Assembly (NCBI RefSeq): GCF_000616095.1 | Contig: NZ_BAMS01000001.1 | Span: 434,001 to 498,000 of the forward strand | Origin: Sneathiella glossodoripedis JCM 23214 | GTDB lineage: Bacteria > Pseudomonadota > Alphaproteobacteria > Sneathiellales > Sneathiellaceae | Reading direction: 5' to 3' | Length of the DNA stretch: 64,000 nucleotides | Shown here: in pieces, positions 7,509 through 53,406 of the stretch | How positions within the stretch are numbered: the stretch's first letter is position 1 | How the letters are laid out: every line of letters begins with the position of its first letter | The notes under the pieces: generated by a model | What the model was told of the DNA's origin: nothing | Seen by the model: the letters and a program-made list of their open reading frames with translations, nothing else | Databases searched by the model: none | Made by a program: the position numbers and the translations under genes

Positions 7509-9290
7509 TTATTTAAACCGATGTTGACGCTTGTTATTGCCTTCATTTGTTTCCGCAACTTTTTTATCAGGGTCAATATACACAACAGAGGTGGAAGATT
7601 GTTTGGGCAAGCGTAATGTCACCCATTTTTTCTGCCCCTTCTTTAAGGCGGGTAACGGTTTAGTCACCTGATTTCCCTTACTGGCGGTAAAAGAGATGGA
7701 TGTCGCAGCCGATGGGCCAACACCTTTATTTTTCACCAAAACCTTGATCCGCTGCTTTCCGGTCTGCTGAATTTTCTGGATGGCCAAATCTGGTAGCAAA
7801 GCGCTTGCGTTCATCATCACAGAGCTTGATAAGCTTGGTGCGTTTGTTGCGGGATCCGTCGACGTCACTGACGTTGCCGCGCCCGCAGCAACCGGCGCGG
7901 TTTGCACGATCACGCATTTCAAATCAATAGCCTTTTCCGTCAGAACTCCGGCGCCCGTCTCACCTTCCCTCAACAGCGCAAGAGTGTAGTTCAATTTCTG
8001 CTCACGAGGCTCTTCCTGATTGATCTGGTTCGCAAATCCGGTAGGTGCAGATCCCCAAGTTACATTATAAGGCATTCCAAAAAAGGCGGTTCCACTTGCA
8101 CTAAGAGAAACATCATGATTACCCGTTGAATGCAGCTCACCAGCCTCATTTCGCACAGTTAGTCTGGCAATACCCTCAAACGGAGTACCGGAGCCTTTTA
8201 GAATGATGACCATGTGCCCGGCTACCGGACAGACCTGATCGGCAAATTTTTGTGTTTTGTTCTGTTCAAATTTAACAATCTTTTCAATGGGCTTTTTCGC
8301 CTGCACGCTAAGGTTTGGGGAACATTCCATTTCAAAGCTTTTGGCTGAGCTTTGCCGCACATTTGGACTGACGGATTCCACCCGGATGGATCCCGTCTCA
8401 GGTCCATCAACCACAGGGACATCAAAAACATCAGAAACCATCACAATTTTGCTGTGACTGGTTGTAGCATGTCGGGTGTCGCTGTAGCGATCCGGAGTAT
8501 TCGGATTGTTGTCCGAATATCTGTATCGGTAGCTCAGAGGCATGTTGATCTTGTTACTTCCCAGAACAGCCGATAGGCGCACACGGCAATAGCTGCCATC
8601 CATCGAAGCCTCCGGGAAGACAGCAACGGATGCTTGTGTAACTTCAGGCAAAGTACCAGGAACTGCGGCTACAGAATGATTTGTGGTTTTCGGCGTATAT
8701 TTCTTACAGGTTACAGCAATCTTTCGATTACCTAGTTCCCCAACACCAATAAACTGTGCGCCCGGTATTCCGGATATGTCATAATTCATTTCCGCGTCGA
8801 CAAGCAGATCATATGTCCGATCCTGCGACAGGATCCAATCTATTGATTTACCAGCTGTCAAATAATTACGCCGCATGGCATTACAATAGCTCTTGGCTAC
8901 TGTACCAACTTCATTTCCGGTTAGTATGAATGTAAAATGACGAGTTACCCTTTTGGGGCGCTGTCCCACAGGATAATTAGCGCTTACCTGATGGTTTTTA
9001 AAATCAATTTTCTCTCCTTCAAACCCAATTCCAATAATGCTCGGCCAGGCTTTCCAGCTTCTCACCCGCCCACTAAACTCGCCGTCCAACTCCATATTAG
9101 CGTTTACAAACAAAGCCGGTGCATTAACTGTGCTGTATGAACTACCATTCGATTCAACTTCAATGGAATTATAGGAAATCGAAGTTATATCGATTACAGC
9201 ATTATCTGCTGCCGCTGCCGCAGAGTAAAATGACACGAACAAGGCTGCTGCCATCCTTGCAGGTGTTCCCGTTGATAATTTGATAGGCAT
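7509..9290 (-). CDS. Secreted protein of unknown function with a C-terminal CARDB-like domain
   Basis: Exported protein of 593 residues. It starts with a clear Sec signal peptide (MPIKLSTGTPARMAAALF, cleavage near AAAA-D). The start at 9290 is fixed by an AGGGGA ribosome site eight bases upstream; the frame is open to 9347 but without such a site. The long middle part is beta-rich with scattered cysteine pairs and I do not recognise it. The last 90 residues (LLPDLAIQKI, KVLVKNKG, then DPDKKVAETNEGNN) fit a CARDB/Ig-like adhesion fold, whose terminal D-P-x-x-x-V-x-E-x-N-E-x-N-N strand is characteristic. A T/S/A-rich linker (about residues 480-510) precedes it. A surface or periplasmic role is inferred; no enzyme motif was seen. 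Confidence 0.75.
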   Translation of the reverse strand: MPIKLSTGTPARMAAALFVSFYSAAAAADNAVIDITSISYNSIEVESNGSSYSTVNAPALFVNANMELDGEFSGRVRSWKAWPSIIGIGFEGEKIDFKNHQVSANYPVGQRPKRVTRHFTFILTGNEVGTVAKSYCNAMRRNYLTAGKSIDWILSQDRTYDLLVDAEMNYDISGIPGAQFIGVGELGNRKIAVTCKKYTPKTTNHSVAAVPGTLPEVTQASVAVFPEASMDGSYCRVRLSAVLGSNKINMPLSYRYRYSDNNPNTPDRYSDTRHATTSHSKIVMVSDVFDVPVVDGPETGSIRVESVSPNVRQSSAKSFEMECSPNLSVQAKKPIEKIVKFEQNKTQKFADQVCPVAGHMVIILKGSGTPFEGIARLTVRNEAGELHSTGNHDVSLSASGTAFFGMPYNVTWGSAPTGFANQINQEEPREQKLNYTLALLREGETGAGVLTEKAIDLKCVIVQTAPVAAGAATSVTSTDPATNAPSLSSSVMMNASALLPDLAIQKIQQTGKQRIKVLVKNKGVGPSAATSISFTASKGNQVTKPLPALKKGQKKWVTLRLPKQSSTSVVYIDPDKKVAETNEGNNKRQHRFK

Positions 9291-9513
9291 GTGAAGTATC
9301 CCCTGATTTATATTAGAGTAGTTTAATTTTTGAACGAGTACAACCAAAACGCACCCTTCCTGATAAATTGGTCGGGCCGGAGGTCCATCTGGTTCAAAAA
9401 TAAATCACTCCTCCAAACACAGATTGCTTAAGGTCTTCTTCAATTTGCCTGTTGATCCAGCAGATCGGCGCGAATAGTATCGGCGGCACTAAGAACATTG
9501 CCGGAATTACCAG

Positions 9514-10128
9514 ATGACCATTTACCTTCACCATAATGATCTGCCTGACGATGTGGATCTTGGCCCCGAAATCGCAATAGATTCCGAAACCATGGGCCTA
9601 AACCCGCATCGGGACCGATTGTGCGTTGTGCAACTCTCTGCTGGTGACGGAGATGCCCATCTGGTGAAGTTTGACGGCAAGTCATATGATGCCCCAAATC
9701 TTGTAAGGCAGTTATCCGATCCGAAGCGCCTGAAACTCTTTCACTTTGGCCGTTTCGACATAGCCGTCCTGAAAAAATATCTTGGGGTTACTTGTACGCC
9801 CGTTTATTGCACAAAAATCGCCTCTCGCTTGGTGCGCACCTATACTGACCGGCATGGCCTCAAAAACCTCTGTCAGGAACTGATTGGGGTCGACTTGTCA
9901 AAACAGCAGCAAAGTTCGGACTGGGGAGCTGATGAACTCAGCACCGCGCAGCAGGAATATGCCGCTTCCGATGTCCTGTATCTCCATCAGTTACGCGACA
10001 AACTGGCCGTCATGCTTGAGCGCGAAGGACGCACAGAAATGGCGCAAAAATGTTTCGAATTTCTGCCCATGCGCGCCGAGCTCGACCTGGCCGGTTGGGA
10101 AGAGACTGACATCTTTGCCCATTCCTGA
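9514..10128 (+). CDS. rnd: Ribonuclease D, short alphaproteobacterial form
   Basis: 3'-5' exoribonuclease of the DEDDy family, acting on the 3' ends of structured RNAs including tRNA precursors. All four acidic positions are visible: AIDSETMGL (D, E), HFGRFDIAVL (D) and YAASDVLYLHQL (D with the Y four residues before the end of the motif). At 204 residues it is only the exonuclease domain, without the HRDC domains of the 375-residue E. coli enzyme, as is usual in this class. It stands at the head of the kdsD-lptCAB-rpoN block, a conserved alphaproteobacterial neighbourhood, but is 120 bp from kdsD. Confidence 0.9.
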   Translation: MTIYLHHNDLPDDVDLGPEIAIDSETMGLNPHRDRLCVVQLSAGDGDAHLVKFDGKSYDAPNLVRQLSDPKRLKLFHFGRFDIAVLKKYLGVTCTPVYCTKIASRLVRTYTDRHGLKNLCQELIGVDLSKQQQSSDWGADELSTAQQEYAASDVLYLHQLRDKLAVMLEREGRTEMAQKCFEFLPMRAELDLAGWEETDIFAHS

Positions 10129-10248
10129 CGATTAACATGGCTCTGCTAGTGAATACCCTTGTGGAAAAGCGGCCCCTTCCCTATATTCTAGCCGGTCCCT
10201 GCACAAAAATATTCAGCGACAATTTTATCAAATAACAGCGACAGACAG

Positions 10249-11250
10249 ATGACAGGCTCACAAGACACGGCAGCAAACAACGCGCAAGATAACCCTGATC
10301 TTGTATCCGCAAGGCGGGTTTTGCAAATTGAAGCAGATGCGCTTGTCGCCTTGAAATTGTCTCTAAACGGCGATTTTATCAAAGCCCTTGATCTTATGAG
10401 CGCTGCCAAAGGCCGTGTGGTTATATCAGGCATGGGAAAAAGCGGCCATATTGGCAAGAAAATTGCTGCAACCCTTGCCTCTACTGGAACTCCATCGCAT
10501 TTTGTCCATCCAGGCGAAGCCAGTCATGGCGATCTGGGCATGATCATGACTGATGACGTGGTGGTTTGTTTGTCCAATTCCGGCGGCACAAAAGAATTAT
10601 CCGATATCATTGCCTATACCAGACGGTTCAACATTCCGCTGATCGCCATTGTCGGCAAAGCAGACAGCACTCTTGCCCGCCGTAGCGATGTAGCGCTGAT
10701 TTTGCCCGATGCCCCGGAAGCCTGCTCAATCGGGCTTGCACCAACGACCTCAACGACCCTGACCCTCGCATTGGGAGATGCCCTCGCCGTTGCGTTACTT
10801 GAGCGAAAAGGGTTTTCTGCGGATCAATTTCATGTCTTTCATCCGGGCGGCAAACTTGGCGGTTCTCTGATCAAGGTGAGCGATTTGATGCATACGGGTT
10901 CAGAAATGCCGCTCATCGACGAAAACGTACTGATGGAACAGGCCTTGCTTGAAATGACAACGAAAGGCTTTGGTACAGTTGGATTGACCAGAGCTGATGG
11001 AAGCCTGAGCGGTATAATCACGGATGGCGACTTACGCCGTCACATGGGCTCTGACCTGCTTAGCAAAAAAGCCTCTGAGGTCATGACAAAGAACCCGCAG
11101 ACAATAAGCCCAAAATCGTTGGCGGCTGAAGCTCTGGCCCAGATGAACAACAAGGGAAATAATGGCATTACCTGCCTGCTGGTCGCCGAAGACAACAGGC
11201 CTGTTGGAATTCTTAGCGTTCACGACTGTTTGCGCGCTGGTGTGATGTAA
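10249..11250 (+). CDS. kdsD: Arabinose-5-phosphate isomerase (KpsF/GutQ family)
   Basis: Converts ribulose 5-phosphate to arabinose 5-phosphate, the first step to KDO in lipopolysaccharide synthesis. An N-terminal SIS sugar-isomerase domain (GMGKSGHIGKKIA near residue 65, HPGEASHGDLGM, LSNSGGTKEL) is followed by two CBS domains (about residues 215-333, with GIITDGDLRRH). Length 333 matches the family. The gene begins the lptC-lptA-lptB operon two bases before lptC, so KDO supply and LPS export are co-expressed. Confidence 0.95.
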   Translation: MTGSQDTAANNAQDNPDLVSARRVLQIEADALVALKLSLNGDFIKALDLMSAAKGRVVISGMGKSGHIGKKIAATLASTGTPSHFVHPGEASHGDLGMIMTDDVVVCLSNSGGTKELSDIIAYTRRFNIPLIAIVGKADSTLARRSDVALILPDAPEACSIGLAPTTSTTLTLALGDALAVALLERKGFSADQFHVFHPGGKLGGSLIKVSDLMHTGSEMPLIDENVLMEQALLEMTTKGFGTVGLTRADGSLSGIITDGDLRRHMGSDLLSKKASEVMTKNPQTISPKSLAAEALAQMNNKGNNGITCLLVAEDNRPVGILSVHDCLRAGVM

Positions 11251-13311: not shown

Positions 13312-13353
13312 TTTGCAAACTATGTGTAACATCAAAGAAAACCGGGAGTGATT

Positions 13354-14895
13354 ATGGGTTTAGCCCCCAGACTGGACATAAAACAGAGTCAGCAGCTTGT
13401 CATGACTCCACAACTGCAACAGGCAATCAAACTGCTGCAACTGTCCAATTTGGACCTTGCAAACTATGTCGAACAGGAACTTGAAAAAAACCCGTTGCTA
13501 GAGCCGGCGGATGCGGATCTGCAAACCGACACCCCAGCCGAGATTGTTCGAACGGATACTGAAGGCTTTGGAGAGGAAACTCCAAATAGCGAAGGGCTTG
13601 CCGACCTGTCACTGACCGAAGGTGCGGCGGTTGAGTATGAAAAAGACTCACCTCTCGATACAGACTACGACAATCTGTATAACAACGACGCTGACAGCGA
13701 TGCTCCGCAACCTCAGAATAGCCCAGAGCAGGATTATATATCCGGCTCTATGTCAGGTACCGCTTCGGGTTTTTCCGATTATTCTTTTGAAGATTCCCTA
13801 ACGGAAGAAAAAACTCTGCAGGATCATTTAACGGATCAATTGCAGCTAATGAATTTGCCTGTCACCACAAAGTTTATTGCTGCCTACCTCATCGACCTGA
13901 TTTCAGACACTGGCTATTTTACTCATCCCATCGAAGAGGTCGCCAACTCGCTGGGTTGCGAGAGGGAACTGGTCGAAACCACCCTTGAAATTCTTCGCGA
14001 CTTTGAACCTGCCGGTGTTTTTGCCCGAGATCTGGCGGATTGTCTCGCTTTGCAGCTCAAGGAGAAAAACCGTCTGGACCCGGCCATGCAGGCATTTCTT
14101 GAAAATCTTGACCTGTTGGCAAAACGCGACTTGAAGTCCCTGATGCAGATTTGTGCCGTCGATCAAGAAGATCTCACGGAAATGATTTCAGAAATCAAGG
14201 AGCTCGACCCAAAACCCGGCCTGCAATTTCAATCAGCCGAAGCTGCAACACTCATTCCTGATGTCTTTATCAGCCAAAATCCGGACGGGACATGGAATAT
14301 TGAACTCAATAGCGAAACTCTGCCAAAAGTCCTTGTAAATAACAGATACTATGCCCAGATATCTGGTAAGGGACTGAAAAAAAATGAGAAAGAGTTCATC
14401 TCCGAATGTTTGAATTCCGCAAACTGGCTGGTGAAATCACTCGACCAGCGAGCCAACACCATCCTGAAAGTCGCCACAGAACTGGTTCGCCAGCAAGAAA
14501 TGTTTTTTCGCTATGGGATCGCCCATCTGCGCCCCTTGAACCTCAAAGCCATTGCCGATGCAATTGAAATGCATGAAAGCACTGTCAGTCGTGTTACCGC
14601 CAATAAATACATGGCAACACCCAGTGGTGTGTTCGAGCTTAAGTATTTCTTCACTTCTGCCATTAATTCTACAGGTGGAGGAGATGCTCACGCAGCAGAA
14701 TCTGTCAAATTTAAGCTTAAGCAGCTTATTGACGAAGAGAAGCCAAACGCTATCCTGTCTGATGACAAGATTGTTGAACTCATGAAGAAGGAGGGAATCG
14801 ATATTGCCCGGCGCACCGTAGCCAAATATCGGGATGCTTTGAAAATCCCGTCCTCGGTAGAGCGCAGGAGACAAAAGAAACTACTGACAACCTGA
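13354..14895 (+). CDS. rpoN: RNA polymerase sigma-54 factor
   Basis: Sigma-54, which directs RNA polymerase to -24/-12 promoters and needs AAA+ activators. Region I is glutamine-rich (LDIKQSQQLVMTPQLQQAIKL), region II is long and acidic (about residues 50-150), the core-binding domain follows, and the RpoN box near the C-terminus reads ARRTVAKYR, identical to the consensus. The ATG at 13354 (513 residues) follows a GGGAG site; a GTG two codons earlier is also in frame. Position after lptB is conserved in Proteobacteria. A good sigma-54 promoter is present elsewhere in this window at 39243. Confidence 0.96.
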   Translation: MGLAPRLDIKQSQQLVMTPQLQQAIKLLQLSNLDLANYVEQELEKNPLLEPADADLQTDTPAEIVRTDTEGFGEETPNSEGLADLSLTEGAAVEYEKDSPLDTDYDNLYNNDADSDAPQPQNSPEQDYISGSMSGTASGFSDYSFEDSLTEEKTLQDHLTDQLQLMNLPVTTKFIAAYLIDLISDTGYFTHPIEEVANSLGCERELVETTLEILRDFEPAGVFARDLADCLALQLKEKNRLDPAMQAFLENLDLLAKRDLKSLMQICAVDQEDLTEMISEIKELDPKPGLQFQSAEAATLIPDVFISQNPDGTWNIELNSETLPKVLVNNRYYAQISGKGLKKNEKEFISECLNSANWLVKSLDQRANTILKVATELVRQQEMFFRYGIAHLRPLNLKAIADAIEMHESTVSRVTANKYMATPSGVFELKYFFTSAINSTGGGDAHAAESVKFKLKQLIDEEKPNAILSDDKIVELMKKEGIDIARRTVAKYRDALKIPSSVERRRQKKLLTT

Positions 14896-15040: not shown

Positions 15041-15628
15041 ATGCATGTAATTGTCAAAGGAAAACAAGTTGATGTCGGTGCTGCTCTTACAGAGTATGTA
15101 GAAGCCACCCTGAATGAAAGGGTTTCAAAATATTTTGACAATGCGGTGGATGCGACCGTGACACTCAGTCGTCGCGGGCATGATTTCCACATAGAATGTA
15201 ACGTTCACCTAAGCTCAGGCATTACCGTCGCGGCCTCAGCGGAACATAATGATGCACACAGTTGTTTCGATGCAGCAGCAGAGCGCATTGACAAACAGCT
15301 CAGAAGATATAAAAGACGGCTCAAAGATCATCACAGCAAGGAGCGGGTAAAGGCAAAGCAGCTTATGGCAGCACAGTCTTACGTCCTTGCCGCTGAACCA
15401 GAGGAACCGGAAGAAGAGGTTGCCAATGATGACTGGCAACCCATGATCATTGCAGAGCGCAGTGAATATATTCCCGAATGTTCTGTAGGTGAAGCCGTGA
15501 TGCGGATGGATCTGGCAAATTTGCCAGCAATGATGTTCCACAACTCTGGAACGAAAGGACTTAATGTTGTATATCGTCGTGCAGATGGTAATATTGGCTG
15601 GATAGATCCAAAACTGGATAACGGCTAA
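15041..15628 (+). CDS. hpf: Ribosome hibernation promoting factor, long form
   Basis: Binds the 30S subunit and drives 100S ribosome dimer formation in stationary phase. The N-terminal HPF/YfiA domain (MHVIVKGKQVDVGAALTEY, then AAERIDKQLRRYKRR) occupies residues 1-100, followed by an acidic linker (EEPEEEVANDDW) and the C-terminal dimerisation domain (SVGEAVMRMDLANLPAMMFHNS). Length 195 marks the long type. Start ATG at 15041; an upstream TTG at 15029 is also in frame but less likely. The rpoN-hpf-ptsN order is conserved. Confidence 0.93.
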   Translation: MHVIVKGKQVDVGAALTEYVEATLNERVSKYFDNAVDATVTLSRRGHDFHIECNVHLSSGITVAASAEHNDAHSCFDAAAERIDKQLRRYKRRLKDHHSKERVKAKQLMAAQSYVLAAEPEEPEEEVANDDWQPMIIAERSEYIPECSVGEAVMRMDLANLPAMMFHNSGTKGLNVVYRRADGNIGWIDPKLDNG

Positions 15629-32708: not shown

Positions 32709-33920
32709 ATGACGCAGTTAAATACATACCGTTCAGGTCCGGATGATACCGGACATTTTGGGATTTTCGGCGGTCAGTTCGTGGCCGAAACCCTGATGCC
32801 GCTTATTCTTGAGCTGGACGAAGCCTATGAAGACGCAAAAAAGGATCCGGACTTCTCCCGCCAGCTCGACGGCCTGTTAAAGCATTATGTTGGCCGAGAA
32901 AGTCCCCTGTATTTTGCAGAGCGTCTGACCGAACATTTTGGCGGTGCTAAAATTTATCTGAAACGCGAAGATTTGAACCATACCGGTGCTCACAAAATCA
33001 ACAACTGTATGGGACAAATCCTTCTCGCCCTTCGGATGGGTAAAAAGCGCATCATTGCAGAAACCGGTGCGGGTCAGCATGGCGTTGCTACAGCAACAGT
33101 TGCGGCCCGTTTTGGCCTGCCCTGCACAATCTATATGGGCGAAACTGACATAGAACGGCAAAAGCCCAACGTGTTTCGCATGAAATTGATGGGCGCTGAG
33201 GTAAAACCTGTTACTTCGGGATCGCGAACCCTCAAAGATGCAATGAACGAAGCGCTTCGCGACTGGGTTACCAATGTCGATGATACCTTTTATATCATTG
33301 GAACTGTTGCCGGACCTCACCCATACCCCACTTTAGTTCGCGATTTCCAGAATGTGATAGGTGACGAAGTTCGCGCACAAATTATGAAAGCTGAAGGCCG
33401 CCTTCCAGACACCCTGCTGGCATGTATTGGGGGTGGCTCCAACGCAATGGGTCTTTTTCATCCTTTCCTTGATGACGAAAATATCAAAATCGTAGGAGTG
33501 GAAGCCGCGGGCCATGGGTTGGATACAGATAAACATGCTGCATCCCTAAAGGGAGGACGTCCTGGTGTCCTCCACGGAAACAGAACATATCTTCTACAAG
33601 ATGGTGACGGCCAGATTATCGAAGCCCATTCCATTTCCGCAGGACTGGATTATCCCGGCATTGGCCCTGAACATGCATGGCTTAATGATGTAGGCCGGGT
33701 TGACTATGTTAGCGCAACCGACGAAGAAGCACTGGAAGCGTTCCAGTTGTGCTGCAAGCTTGAAGGCATCATTCCGGCGCTGGAATCCAGTCATGCCCTC
33801 GCTTATCTGAAACATTACGCACCATCCTTGCCCAAGGATCATATCATCGTGGTCAATCTGTCTGGTCGTGGGGACAAGGATATTTTTACAGTTGCTGACG
33901 CTCTGGGAGTGGAACTCTAA
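32709..33920 (+). CDS. trpB: Tryptophan synthase beta chain
   Basis: PLP enzyme that condenses indole and serine. The Schiff-base lysine is in HTGAHKINN (about residue 98), with [10 protein letters not shown] and the phosphate loop GGGSNAMG (about residue 241). 403 residues, standard. The stop overlaps the trpA ATG by one base (TAATG). Confidence 0.97.
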
Positions 33921-34731
33921 TGCAAACCCGTATTGATCGTCGCTTTGCGGCCCTGAAAGCTGAAGGCCGGGCAGCCTTTGTTACTTTTGTCATGGCCGGG
34001 GATCCCAACAGGGAAACGTTCGAAAAGATAATCAGTGGCCTTCCAGCCGCAGGCGCAGATGTCATCGAAATCGGAATGCCTTTTACAGATCCGATGGCAG
34101 ACGGACCTGCCATTCAACAGGCCGGCCTACGGGCACTCGCATCAGGAACCACACTCAGATCAACGCTGGAATCAATTCGCAATTTTCGGCGCGAAAATGA
34201 CGATACCCCGATTATTCTCATGGGGTATTATAATCCGATTTACAGCTATGGTGTTGATGCGTTTCTCAAAGATGCGAAAGACGCCGGTATCGATGGCCTC
34301 ATCGTAGTTGATCTGCCCTCCGAAGAAGACAACGAGCTATGCTTGCCTGCGCAGGCTGCTGGTCTTAATTTTATAAGGCTTGCGACGCTACAACAGATGA
34401 CAAACGCTTGCCATCCGTATTGAAAAACAGCTCCGGTTTTCTGTATTATGTTTCCATCGCGGGAACGACCGGTGCTGCAGCCCCAAAACCTGAGGATGTG
34501 GCTGTGGCCCTTGAAAGAATTAAAGCGGCAACGGATCTTCCCATTGCTGTTGGTTTTGGTATACGAAGCGGTGCACAGGCTGCTGAAATCGCTAAAATCG
34601 CAGATGGTGCTGTCGTCGGAAGTGCTCTTGTAGAGTGCATTGCAAACGCCACTTCAGACGCAGAAGCCGTCAAAGCTGTACATACACTAGCCTCTGAAAT
34701 CTCTGCAGGTGTGCAGAGCGTTTCAAAATAG
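33920..34731 (+). CDS. trpA: Tryptophan synthase alpha chain, frameshifted
   Basis: Cleaves indole-glycerol phosphate and channels indole to TrpB. Catalytic Glu in VIEIGMPF and Asp in IVVDLPSEE are present. The frame breaks at about 34389: GCG ACG CTA lacks a C; GCG ACG CCT restores the hallmark [15 protein letters not shown] and continues to [15 protein letters not shown] and GFGIRSGAQ (total about 270 residues, normal). The uncorrected halves end at 34423 and begin at 34408. As the rest of the trp operon is intact, a sequence error is likely. Confidence 0.93.
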
Positions 34732-38022: not shown

Positions 38023-39144
38023 ATGAAGAACCCCTATTCACCTACAGAGAAAAACCTGTCGCTTCGCAATGTGGATCGTGCCATTGCCGACTTACGCCGT
38101 GCCTTATGTGTTATTGTGCAGGCCCCAGATAGCGCAGTTCTGGCTCTCTCAACTGAAATGGCGTTTGAAGACGCTAAACTCAGAATGGAAAGCCTCGCGC
38201 AAACTTCGGCTATTCTCGCGCTTACAGCGCATCGCGCGAACGTGTTACACATTCTGCCTACAGGGGATGAAACCATTCAGGTCGAAATCGCCGATTGGAT
38301 GAAAACAGACTTATTGCGCGCTCTTGCTGATGCGACCCATGATCTGGACCAACCGTTCAGGGGGCCTTTTAATCGCATCAAATCATCGACCCCTAAAACA
38401 GTGACTGCCGCGATTAAAATGGCCAAGCTGGGTCGGCTCCTGCCATCCGTACTATTCTGTGAAATTGATCCAGCGAATGTTGAAAGCCTGAAACAAAACG
38501 AAGACTTGTTGAGTGTCACTGCCGATGAAATCCTCACCTATGATGATGACGCGGCTGCCGAGTTAAAACCGGTCGCCATTGCCAAGGTCCCTTTGCAGGC
38601 TTCAGAAAACACCAAAATTCAAGCCTTTCGGCCCATGGATGGGGGCATTGAGCATCTCGCGATTATCATTGGTGACCCACCAAGACACGAACCTGTTCTG
38701 GCGCGTCTGCATTCGGAATGCTTTACCGGTGATCTTGTCGGCTCCTTGAAATGCGACTGCGGTGAACAACTGCGCGGTGCCATAAAAGCCATTGCTGATG
38801 AAGGCGGGGGTGTACTGTTATACTTGGCGCAAGAAGGGCGAGGCATCGGCCTGATCAACAAATTACGGGCATATAAACTGCAAAGTGATGGATTTGATAC
38901 CATCGATGCTAATGAACGTTTAGGATTTGATGCCGATGAACGTGTCTTCAGGCCTGCTGCGGAAATGCTCCGGCATATGGGATTTTCAAGCGTCCGACTC
39001 ATGACCAACAATCCGGAAAAAATTGAAGGAATGACCCGGTGCGGCATCGAAGTTACCGAGCGGGTTTCACATAAATTTCCCTCCAACACGCATAACGAGC
39101 TATATCTGGCCACCAAGCGGAAAAAAAGCGGGCATTATCTGTAA
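38023..39144 (+). CDS. ribA: GTP cyclohydrolase II, with an N-terminal domain of unclear role
   Basis: First committed step of riboflavin synthesis. The C-terminal half has the zinc cysteines (ECFTGDLVGSLKCDCGEQL), the catalytic EGRGIGLINKLRAY, and LMTNNPEKI. The first 170 residues resemble a degenerate DHBP-synthase-like region but lack the acidic active-site motif of RibB that I would expect, so the protein is probably monofunctional, as in other alphaproteobacterial RibA enzymes of about 370 residues. Monocistronic. Confidence 0.9.
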   Translation: MKNPYSPTEKNLSLRNVDRAIADLRRALCVIVQAPDSAVLALSTEMAFEDAKLRMESLAQTSAILALTAHRANVLHILPTGDETIQVEIADWMKTDLLRALADATHDLDQPFRGPFNRIKSSTPKTVTAAIKMAKLGRLLPSVLFCEIDPANVESLKQNEDLLSVTADEILTYDDDAAAELKPVAIAKVPLQASENTKIQAFRPMDGGIEHLAIIIGDPPRHEPVLARLHSECFTGDLVGSLKCDCGEQLRGAIKAIADEGGGVLLYLAQEGRGIGLINKLRAYKLQSDGFDTIDANERLGFDADERVFRPAAEMLRHMGFSSVRLMTNNPEKIEGMTRCGIEVTERVSHKFPSNTHNELYLATKRKKSGHYL

Positions 39145-39242
39145 AGGGATAGCCTTTCCCATATCTGGTAAAATTTGCCCAGCTGACACCGACAAGCAAA
39201 AGAAAATAGTGGTGAAAGGCGCATAAAACCAAGCTGCTTAAC

Positions 39243-39258
39243 TGGCATGAACCTTGCT
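39243..39258 (+). promoter_or_regulatory. Sigma-54 (-24/-12) promoter
   Basis: TGGCATG, four bases, TTGCT: a full match to the sigma-54 consensus TGGCAYR-N4-TTGCW, with GG and GC at the right spacing. It ends 25 bases before the ATG at 39284, and AAGGAG lies between. RpoN and IhfB are both encoded in this window. Confidence 0.7.
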
Positions 39259-39283
39259 TACTTTTTAGCGAAGGAGATTTTAT

Positions 39284-40222
39284 ATGTCAGTCGGTATCGC
39301 TACTCAAAACCACTATGCCTATATGGACCAGCATGTAGAAGGCGGCGCAACGGTACAGTATCCTGGCGCTCGATCATCTCAAATAAACGCAGAAGCTTCG
39401 GCTGAGACATCTGGGCAGGAAACCGCGCAAAAAGACATAAACCTTTTTGGTGAGGATGGCTTTGGCTTTGATGATTTCCTCGATATCATAAACCCTCTTC
39501 AACATATTCCCGTCATTTCGACGTTGTACCGGGAAATCACAGGCGATCAGTTAAATCCGGGCGCCCGTATTATCGGTGGTGGGATATTCGGTGGTGGCGT
39601 GGGATTGGCGGCCTCCGTGGTCAATACAGTCATCGAAGTGGAAACCGGCAAGGATATTGGTGGGCATGTTGCAGCCTTGGTAAGCGGCGAGGAAATACCT
39701 GATGAGACGATGCTAGCTACAACATCATCCGCGCCGCAATCACCCACACCCGCAGTTACCCCAACATCAACGCCTCAAATAATCCCGGCAAGCTTTAACG
39801 CTCCAAAGCCCACAGTCCTCGAGCCAAAACCGCAGGCATCAGCCCCAAATTCAGCATCAACGCCAGTTCAAAGCAGATCATCTAACCAAGAAAAATCACC
39901 CGCACAACCGCCACTGATGATGGGACTGGAGTGGAAAACCCAGCCTCCTAACCTGCACAAAAACATTGATAATATCCGCGCTGCACAAGGTGAAAACCTA
40001 ACACCCGAACAGTTGGCCCGCATACTGGGTGCTTTCAATCAAGCTCCTGCTGCAAGAGCTACAACTGTTGATACAAAAGCTCAGACCAGCGAGCCTGATC
40101 AGGTTGGGCGCGCATCTCCTGGCAATCCTGGTGAAATCACCACAAACGCAATACGGAATTCAAATTTAGCGAACCTAACATCACAGACCGACCAATTTGG
40201 CCTCACCGTCACGTTGCGCTAG
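39284..40222 (+). CDS. Unknown 312-residue protein behind a sigma-54 promoter
   Basis: Not recognised as a named family. Three parts: residues 1-60 polar, low complexity; residues 60-135 a compact hydrophobic and glycine-rich segment (DDFLDIINPLQHIPVISTLY, ITGDQLNPGARIIGGG, FGGGVGLAASVVNTVIEVET); residues 140-312 Pro/Ser/Thr/Ala/Gln-rich and disordered. No signal peptide is seen and the glycine-rich stretch is not a normal membrane helix. A good ribosome site (AAGGAG) and the sigma-54 promoter support expression. Sigma-54 control often marks flagellar or nitrogen genes, but the sequence does not decide. The 3' end overlaps the EamA gene by four bases. Confidence 0.65.
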   Translation: MSVGIATQNHYAYMDQHVEGGATVQYPGARSSQINAEASAETSGQETAQKDINLFGEDGFGFDDFLDIINPLQHIPVISTLYREITGDQLNPGARIIGGGIFGGGVGLAASVVNTVIEVETGKDIGGHVAALVSGEEIPDETMLATTSSAPQSPTPAVTPTSTPQIIPASFNAPKPTVLEPKPQASAPNSASTPVQSRSSNQEKSPAQPPLMMGLEWKTQPPNLHKNIDNIRAAQGENLTPEQLARILGAFNQAPAARATTVDTKAQTSEPDQVGRASPGNPGEITTNAIRNSNLANLTSQTDQFGLTVTLR

Positions 40223-41127
40223 GTCTCTCTGCGTTTTTTTACAAGCTTGGGGAATTTGATCTGGGTGATCACCATTCCCCCTAAAATCAGTGCAAGCCCA
40301 ATATAGGTCTGAACACTTGGTATCTCACTTGCAAACAGATATCCCCACAAAATCCCCAGCATCGGGTTCAGATAATTATTGAGGGCCACAAATGTTGCTC
40401 CAACCCGCATAATCACGAAATACAATACTACCGTCGCAATCGCGGTCGGAAACACTCCCAGAACAACAAGTGCTCCCAGCGATTCCTGACTTGGTGACAA
40501 GGTCCAGGGCTGATCTACAAACAGACAGATGGGTACAGCGATCATGCTCGCAACGATCAGTACGCCAGCCGCTCTGGAAAAGGCGTCCATATCTGGCATA
40601 TTACGCGCAACAAAACCACAGGCGACATAACAGGCAGCGCCGGCGACAATAGCAAGCTGACTTATCACATTATTTCCAAGCTCCAATATGGCGTTAGGCC
40701 CTATCAAAACCACAAGACCACCAAAACCGATTGTTACGCCGACCACCCTCTCAGTGGTAAGCTTTTCATCCTCTGTCAGAAGATGACCCAGCACAAATCC
40801 GATTAATGGTGCTGTTCCGATCAGAATAGCCGCTATAGAGCTATCGACCGTAAGTTGCGCCCAACTGATCATATTAAAGGGCAGCACGTTACCAAATACG
40901 CCCAAAATCAGAAAAAATATCCAACTCCTGCGATCTGCTGGTAACCTCGCACCGCTGAGGCGCATCACCACATATAAGACGATTGCAGCGATCAAGATAC
41001 GACCCGCAGCAACCGATTGCGGCGGCAATGTTTCAACGGCAAACTTGATAAATAGAAAGCTGGAACTCCACATTAATGACAATGATAAGAGTGCCAAAAA
41101 ATCTAATGTTTGAGGTTTGTTGGACAT
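40219..41127 (-). CDS. EamA-family (DMT) transporter
   Basis: Inner-membrane permease of the drug/metabolite transporter superfamily, 302 residues and about ten helices in two repeated EamA units (LSLMWSSSFLFIKFAVETLP and LGVFPTAIATVVLYFVIMRVG mark each half). Substrate unknown; the family includes exporters of amino acids and other metabolites. C-terminal basic tail KLVKKRRET. Convergent with the preceding gene. Confidence 0.88.
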   Translation of the reverse strand: MSNKPQTLDFLALLSLSLMWSSSFLFIKFAVETLPPQSVAAGRILIAAIVLYVVMRLSGARLPADRRSWIFFLILGVFGNVLPFNMISWAQLTVDSSIAAILIGTAPLIGFVLGHLLTEDEKLTTERVVGVTIGFGGLVVLIGPNAILELGNNVISQLAIVAGAACYVACGFVARNMPDMDAFSRAAGVLIVASMIAVPICLFVDQPWTLSPSQESLGALVVLGVFPTAIATVVLYFVIMRVGATFVALNNYLNPMLGILWGYLFASEIPSVQTYIGLALILGGMVITQIKFPKLVKKRRET

Positions 41128-52456: not shown

Positions 52457-53406
52457 TTAATGGAAGTCTTCATCAAGAGCAGATTGGATACTTCCTTCAA
52501 AAGCATCCTCTTCTTCTTCTTGCTCTGTAACTTGACGAGAGATACGACGACATATTTCATCCAATTGATCGATGTGATCATAGGCAATCGATATTTGGCC
52601 GCAACCCTTTGATTTATCATGAGAAATCGAAACTTTCATCCCAATTGCCGCTGATAAATCCTGTTCTAGAGCGAGCGCATCCTGATCCTTCGTACTGCGG
52701 GGCGCTGAGGGCGCTCTATTTGAGGGTTTTTTAGAGACAATTTTCTCAATTTCTCGAACTGAAAGACCATCAATCAAAACACGGCGAGCCAGTTTATCGG
52801 GATTATCCGACATCAGGATGGCGCGGCCAGCACCTGCACTAATTGCTCCCGAGCTTACCAAACCTTTGACCGTTTCCGGTAGCGCGAGCAACCTTAGTGT
52901 ATTTGCAATATGTGATCGACTCTTACCAAGTTGTTTTGCTAATTGATCCTGTGTGTAAGAATATTCATCCATGAGCCGGCGATACCCTTCAGCTCTTCTA
53001 TGGGAGACAAATCCTCACGCTGAATATTCTCGATAATCGCAATTTCAAGACTATCCGTATCGCTCAGATCTTTAATAATGACAGGAACTTCATGAAGTTG
53101 AGCAATCTGTGCGGCCCGCCAACGGCGTTCTCCCGCAATTATCTGATAAGATCCATTGCCACTGGGATCGCGACGAACCAGAATTGGTTGCAAAACACCT
53201 TTATCCGCAATTGAATCAGCAAGACTTTCCAACGCTTCCTGATCCCAAAGCTGACGCGGCTGAAAAGGACTTGGATGTAGTTGGTCTATTGGAACCTCCT
53301 TGGAGGTTCTGACCCGATCCAGTTCCGAATAATCGGCGGCAACATCATCCCCAAGAAGAGCAGACAGGCCCCGTCCCAGTTTCTTTTTTCCAGTATCGTC
53401 AGACAT
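52457..53406 (-). CDS. parB: Chromosome partitioning protein ParB, frameshifted
   Basis: CTP-dependent clamp that loads at parS. N-terminal KKKLGRGLSALLG; the CTP site GERRWRAAQ (about residue 103) and IENIQREDLSPIEE; HTH with QLAKQLGKSRSHIAN. The frame breaks at about 52993: GAG CTG should be GAG GCT G, giving the canonical EEAEGYRRLMDEYSYTQ and total 316 residues. The uncorrected parts are 155 and 171 residues. ParB is usually essential or strongly required here, so an error is more likely than a broken gene. Four parS sites are in the window. Confidence 0.95.

Follow-up and report, generated by a model that had tools for sequence, protein, structure and literature searches.

The gene and its surroundings

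The window, by which we mean the whole stretch of 64,000 nucleotides of Sneathiella glossodoripedis that was analysed, contains a protein gene preceded by the control elements listed here, with the parts of its predicted product.

39165-39182, + strand: candidate FlbD-type enhancer palindrome CTGGTAAAATTTGCCCAG, matching 7 of the 10 positions of CGGCA-N5-TGCCG, its first base 77 nt ahead of the sigma-54 promoter
39243-39258, + strand: sigma-54 (-24/-12) promoter TGGCATGAACCTTGCT, identified from the sequence and kept in 106 of 116 family loci
39270-39276, + strand: ribosome-binding site GAAGGAG, read from the sequence
39284-40222, + strand: protein gene, ATG start, 312 amino acids, undescribed family
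39446-39685, + strand: conserved core, residues 55-134, DIINPLQHIPVVSTIYR..TGDEI.P.AR..GG.LFGGPIG....N...E..TGKD.G, from three alignments and column counts
39557-39646, + strand: 30-residue glycine-rich hydrophobic helix, residues 92-121, predicted by AlphaFold2
39686-40219, + strand: C-terminal arm, rich in Pro, Ala, Ser and Thr, mostly disordered as judged from model confidence and composition

The gene probably forms a unit by itself. Upstream, a gene for GTP cyclohydrolase II (38023-39144, Pfam name) ends 139 bases before its reading frame; at the other side a gene for an EamA transporter (40219-41127, Pfam name), convergent to it, overlaps the frame by 4 bases with its own end. Further away in the window lie rpoN (13348-14895) and an IHF/HU-family gene (Pfam PF00216, 28955-29233) that we read as ihfB, in agreement with the sequence-only reading that preceded this work. 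Two genes of the window, trpA (33917-34728) and parB (52538-53406), are each broken into two frames as compared with their relatives, and flhA, ntrC and flgI appear split in other stretches of the same genome (L214, L216, L164); all these splits are probably indel errors of the assembly.

A conserved core in an undescribed protein family

All 25 genomes of the family-level group contain a relative of the full protein, while the core was recovered in 112 of the 289 genomes sampled from the class, which places it in 84 of the 223 alphaproteobacterial genera sampled. There is one copy per genome, the second matches seen in four fragmented assemblies being other pieces of the query. The 80 named loci, taken from 108 found, include Sneathiella, Azospirillum, Kiloniella, Magnetospirillum, Ferrovibrio, Dongia, Micavibrio and many Rhodospirillales. 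Two core relatives (L120, L124) come from metagenome-assembled genomes labelled Mariprofundus and Deltaproteobacteria, which may be mislabelled bins or reflect transfer. Members vary widely in length and conservation is limited to the core of about 80 residues, in which D67, I68, N70, P71, Q73, H74, P76, Y82, D88 and G98 are invariant in 67 sequences; a C-terminal ALDKYE-like motif, sought with a crude pattern, occurs in 16 of these 67 members.

The core had no significant match in Pfam or NCBIfam at curated cut-offs, nor in profile searches of the PDB, and Foldseek returned nothing significant (best E 6.7). No relative was found in the plasmids, phages and viral contigs searched, and a literature search with the core peptide found no publication. 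Two weak matches to glycine/alanine-rich stretches were rejected: a 'minor tail protein' of the PHROG set, matched by 2 of 73 core sequences (best E 7e-5), and the SseD translocon model, matched by one member (E 0.0088). As far as such searches can tell, the family is an undescribed one, as had been surmised from the single sequence.

The AlphaFold2 model places helices at residues 76-86, 92-121 and 125-133, with a confidence of about 80 for the long helix, low values for the rest and a mean of 61.5; modelled alone, the core reaches a mean of 72. The glycine-rich hydrophobic core flanked by disordered arms, which had been proposed from the sequence, is recognizable in these models, where the arms have low confidence and are predicted to be mostly disordered. 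The best 19-residue hydropathy has a family mean of 1.44, and because this is borderline for a membrane span, membrane association is something that we infer. Reading of the sequence revealed no obvious signal peptide.

A sigma-54 promoter kept at the same place in relatives

The promoter TGGCATGAACCTTGCT is the sole exact TGGCATG-N4-TTGCT of the window and ends exactly 25 bases short of the ATG, which is what had been claimed at the outset, with the proviso that it carries one mismatch to TGGCACG-N4-TTGCW. The GG of the -24 element and the GC of the -12 element are there with the fixed spacing proper to a sigma-54-dependent gene. Transcripts made by this form of the polymerase start about 12 nt past the GC, a spacing from which we presume a start at about 39269.

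Could this be a chance hit to the consensus? Sigma-54-like matches with at most two mismatches are not enriched in the window (11 observed, 11.8 expected), which is how things would look if it were, and we nevertheless hold this explanation to be scarcely credible, in view of what happens in other genomes. Promoters were scored against a consensus with weights modelled on the published one (maximum 23.5, threshold at least 20). Within 150 nt of the start of the reading frame a score of at least 20 out of 23.5 was reached in 70 of 117 relatives versus 17 of 1543 controls, which were the other reading frames of at least 200 amino acids in the same loci, with counts back-computed from fractions. 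Since many reading frames had been called from too early a start, a wider scan covered everything between a point 200 nt upstream and the core; it placed a strong site in nearly all non-redundant loci (106/116, the control comparison being that of the 150-nt stretches) and, after collapse at 60% core identity, ahead of the core in 51 of 58 clusters. It is because the site is conserved at the same place in relatives, and not because of the count in the window, that we take it as genuine on this comparative evidence, and the control by RpoN proposed earlier finds strong support in the comparison across genomes. Another near-consensus match, TGGCAAGAAAATTGCT at 10452-10467, lies inside the reading frame 10249-11250 and is probably fortuitous.

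A palindrome common to the family and to flagellar promoters

A dyad scan upstream of 105 family promoters brought out GGCA-N5-TGCC ahead of 57 of them, where shuffled sequences led one to expect 0.8. In its longer form, CGGCA-N5-TGCCG, this palindrome, which we take to be the FlbD (ftr) site, is matched at 9-10 of its 10 positions in 67 of the 105 family loci versus 58 of the 1473 length-matched control stretches, and it mostly starts 54-128 nt ahead of the -24 element. The 8/10 level, passed by 475 of the 1473 controls, was dropped as evidence; its helical phasing was pronounced as long as related loci were counted, but weak after collapse (28 clusters, p about 0.02-0.04), and was set aside. 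The copy in the window, TGGTAAAATTTGCCC, is weak, 7/10, a level that discriminates nothing by itself (1280 of 1473 control stretches reach it), yet it stands at -77, where many relatives carry a strong palindrome. A relaxed composite pattern uniting palindrome and sigma-54 site occurs at five places in the genome of 3.63 Mb, the site of the window among them.

The same association is met at flagellar genes. In the flagellar clusters of the source genome, strong intergenic sigma-54 sites precede flaG, flgF, flgI and fliK (Pfam names), accompanied in each case by a palindrome of 7-8/10 lying 78-100 nt further upstream, while two weaker sites of the same clusters (score 20.5) have a match of merely 6-7/10. 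With an 8-10/10 palindrome, the pair precedes flgF-like genes in three other genomes (G083, G104, G217), a flgI-like gene in G104 and a flagellin-like gene in G082 (names by reading). No palindrome accompanied two other sites ahead of flagellar-looking genes in G082, nor two sites in G217, and the flagellar stretch of G051 yielded no sigma-54 site. A strict composite search of the 16 core-bearing genomes without FliM and of 24 chosen core-bearing genomes with it produced 36 loci: 10 belong to the family by their core motif, 7 are flagellar by Pfam (4 flagellins, 2 FlgK, 1 FlgF), 6 encode GGDEF proteins by Pfam and 13 are others, many of them probably chance matches. In the 25 genomes of the family-level group the composite search retrieved mainly the family gene, plus FlaG-like genes. 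The mark of a common regulon, an activator palindrome common to family and flagellar promoters, is there, the window having a weak copy of it.

The GGDEF proteins found behind the same pair are of the single-domain kind (L174, L175, L186, L194, L201, L207). Alike in regulation, they differ from the family in having a known enzyme domain, and such loci exist also in genomes without FliM or FlbD matches (G180, G277).

FlbD and the distribution of the family

FlbD of Caulobacter is described as binding ftr elements and as activating sigma-54-dependent middle and late flagellar genes (PMC3930126, PMC3096577); a further article (PMC12421884) cites Fumeaux et al. for FlbD binding sites, and a printed ftr sequence was not found in the passages of the literature searched. 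For Azospirillum brasilense, an rpoN mutant devoid of flagella is on record (PMC12826043). The source genome has four strong and two marginal matches to the sigma-54 activator domain. One of these proteins, encoded at 8820-10202 of stretch L214, is FlbD (NCBIfam NF050807, 788 bits for a cut-off of 750), its gene lying within a flagellar cluster as judged by reading the names of its neighbours. A DUF1153 protein, presumably SciP, is encoded at 15087-15383 of that stretch, in the fliF-flgE cluster.

Among the 112 core-bearing genomes, 108 have rpoN, 96 FliM and 89 FlbD (kinship uncorrected), FlbD being counted through its N-terminal 120 residues with matches listed down to E 3e-24. The core occurs without a FlbD match in 23 of the 112, some of which are probably assembly gaps, and without FliM in 16; conversely, 47 genomes have FlbD and no core. 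Among genomes with FliM, FlbD is present or absent in 86 and 10 of those with the core versus 44 and 20 of those without (Fisher p 0.0016, kinship uncorrected). A search for FlbD near FliM in the genomes without a FlbD match found none, which is uninformative, the FlbD of the source genome being also away from FliM.

Of the 112 genomes with the core, thirteen lack both a FliM and a FlbD match (G053, G090, G136, G147, G174, G180, G193, G218, G232, G239, G250, G261, G277), some of them rated 95-100% complete, and these may have lost their flagella, use another activator or be missing assembly. Twelve of them keep a sigma-54 score of at least 20 and seven a 9-10/10 palindrome. This retention would fit an envelope or surface protein, co-regulated with motility and switched on in the motile state, that would do its work independently of the flagellum, as would the GGDEF genes, which imply a regulon wider than the flagellum. 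The surroundings go the same way: the recurrent neighbours of the core loci are housekeeping genes in mixed orientation, and in 31 of 50 loci the gene for an L,D-transpeptidase follows downstream. Against it, a composite promoter of G147 stands before a flagellin gene, so that part of the absence of FliM and FlbD reflects missing assembly, and FliM is present in most core-bearing genomes. We regard this envelope reading as a possibility of some weight, if not the one to be favoured.

When the thirteen genomes were searched with full-length FlbD, solely NtrC/NtrX-like and other activators came up, and G136 has two activators only, both NtrC/NtrX-like by reading. One might then think of a gene of the nitrogen regulon, with NtrC or NtrX as its activator. 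The palindrome is, however, that of flagellar promoters and unlike the NtrC site, GCAC-N7-GTGC; the recognition helices of FlbD differ from those of the NtrC/NtrX-like proteins; and no nitrogen gene recurs next to the core. A nitrogen gene is for these reasons very unlikely.

A probable member of the late flagellar regulon

The regulation is well supported by comparison, through the promoter, the palindrome common to flagellar promoters and the presence of FlbD. We consider it likely, on these comparative grounds, that the family gene belongs, as a conserved member, to the late flagellar regulon of FlbD and sigma-54 and is not a nitrogen gene. As it appears to use the same two-part switch as late flagellum genes, its product would probably be made while the flagellum is being built. 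Once an early flagellar structure is in place, FlbD would bind the palindrome about 77 bases upstream, and the bound protein would contact the sigma-54 RNA polymerase at the -24/-12 promoter, switching on the gene alongside those for rod, ring, hook-length and filament proteins. The product, in which the hydrophobic, glycine-rich core is predicted to sit between long arms without fixed structure, would probably lie with this core on or in the inner membrane.

With the class III-IV flagellar genes that FlbD and sigma-54 control in Caulobacter crescentus, the family gene has in common a sigma-54 promoter, an upstream activator palindrome and the same activator family, whereas its product is no known rod, ring, hook, filament or regulatory protein and the gene stands alone among housekeeping genes. 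The genes flaG, flgF, flgI and fliK of its own genome resemble it in sigma-54 site, palindrome and spacing and differ by lying in flagellar clusters and encoding known flagellar parts. The window gene is outside such clusters, with housekeeping neighbours; clustering is usual for flagellar components and not obligatory. In the relatives, no flagellar or nitrogen gene, which had been suggested as worth looking for, recurs beside the core, and neighbourhood was dropped as a clue to function. In the early proposal of an envelope or flagellar component, the flagellar link agrees with the enhancer-like palindrome common to flagellar promoters, while a place for the protein in the structure of flagellum or envelope is a conjecture.

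What the protein might do is open to several readings. It could be one of the late substrates that the flagellar export apparatus handles, produced together with the axial proteins and sent out through the flagellum, since it would belong to their regulon, with a disordered N-terminus in the models and no evident signal peptide; its most conserved part is nevertheless a hydrophobic glycine-rich helix, unlike axial proteins, and none of the 67 members has a Pfam flagellar domain, which makes export improbable. PflI, TipF and the other proteins that place the polar flagellum in Caulobacter are alphaproteobacterial and linked to polar flagella, PflI being linked to early flagellar genes. Returning to the regulon membership that we favour, one may tentatively picture an accessory protein that associates with the membrane, at the base of the flagellum or at the flagellated pole, a rather unlikely guess. 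Somewhat less doubtful, and still short of even, is the broader idea that a part of the alphaproteobacterial flagellum, or of its membrane seat, has been overlooked although it is widely conserved; it would have a glycine-rich membrane anchor and long disordered arms, would be made in the late class and would be absent from many lineages, some of them with FlbD.

We are in the presence of a widespread nameless family, the control of which points at the flagellum. It suggests that the late flagellar regulon of Alphaproteobacteria has unrecognised members, single-domain GGDEF proteins included.
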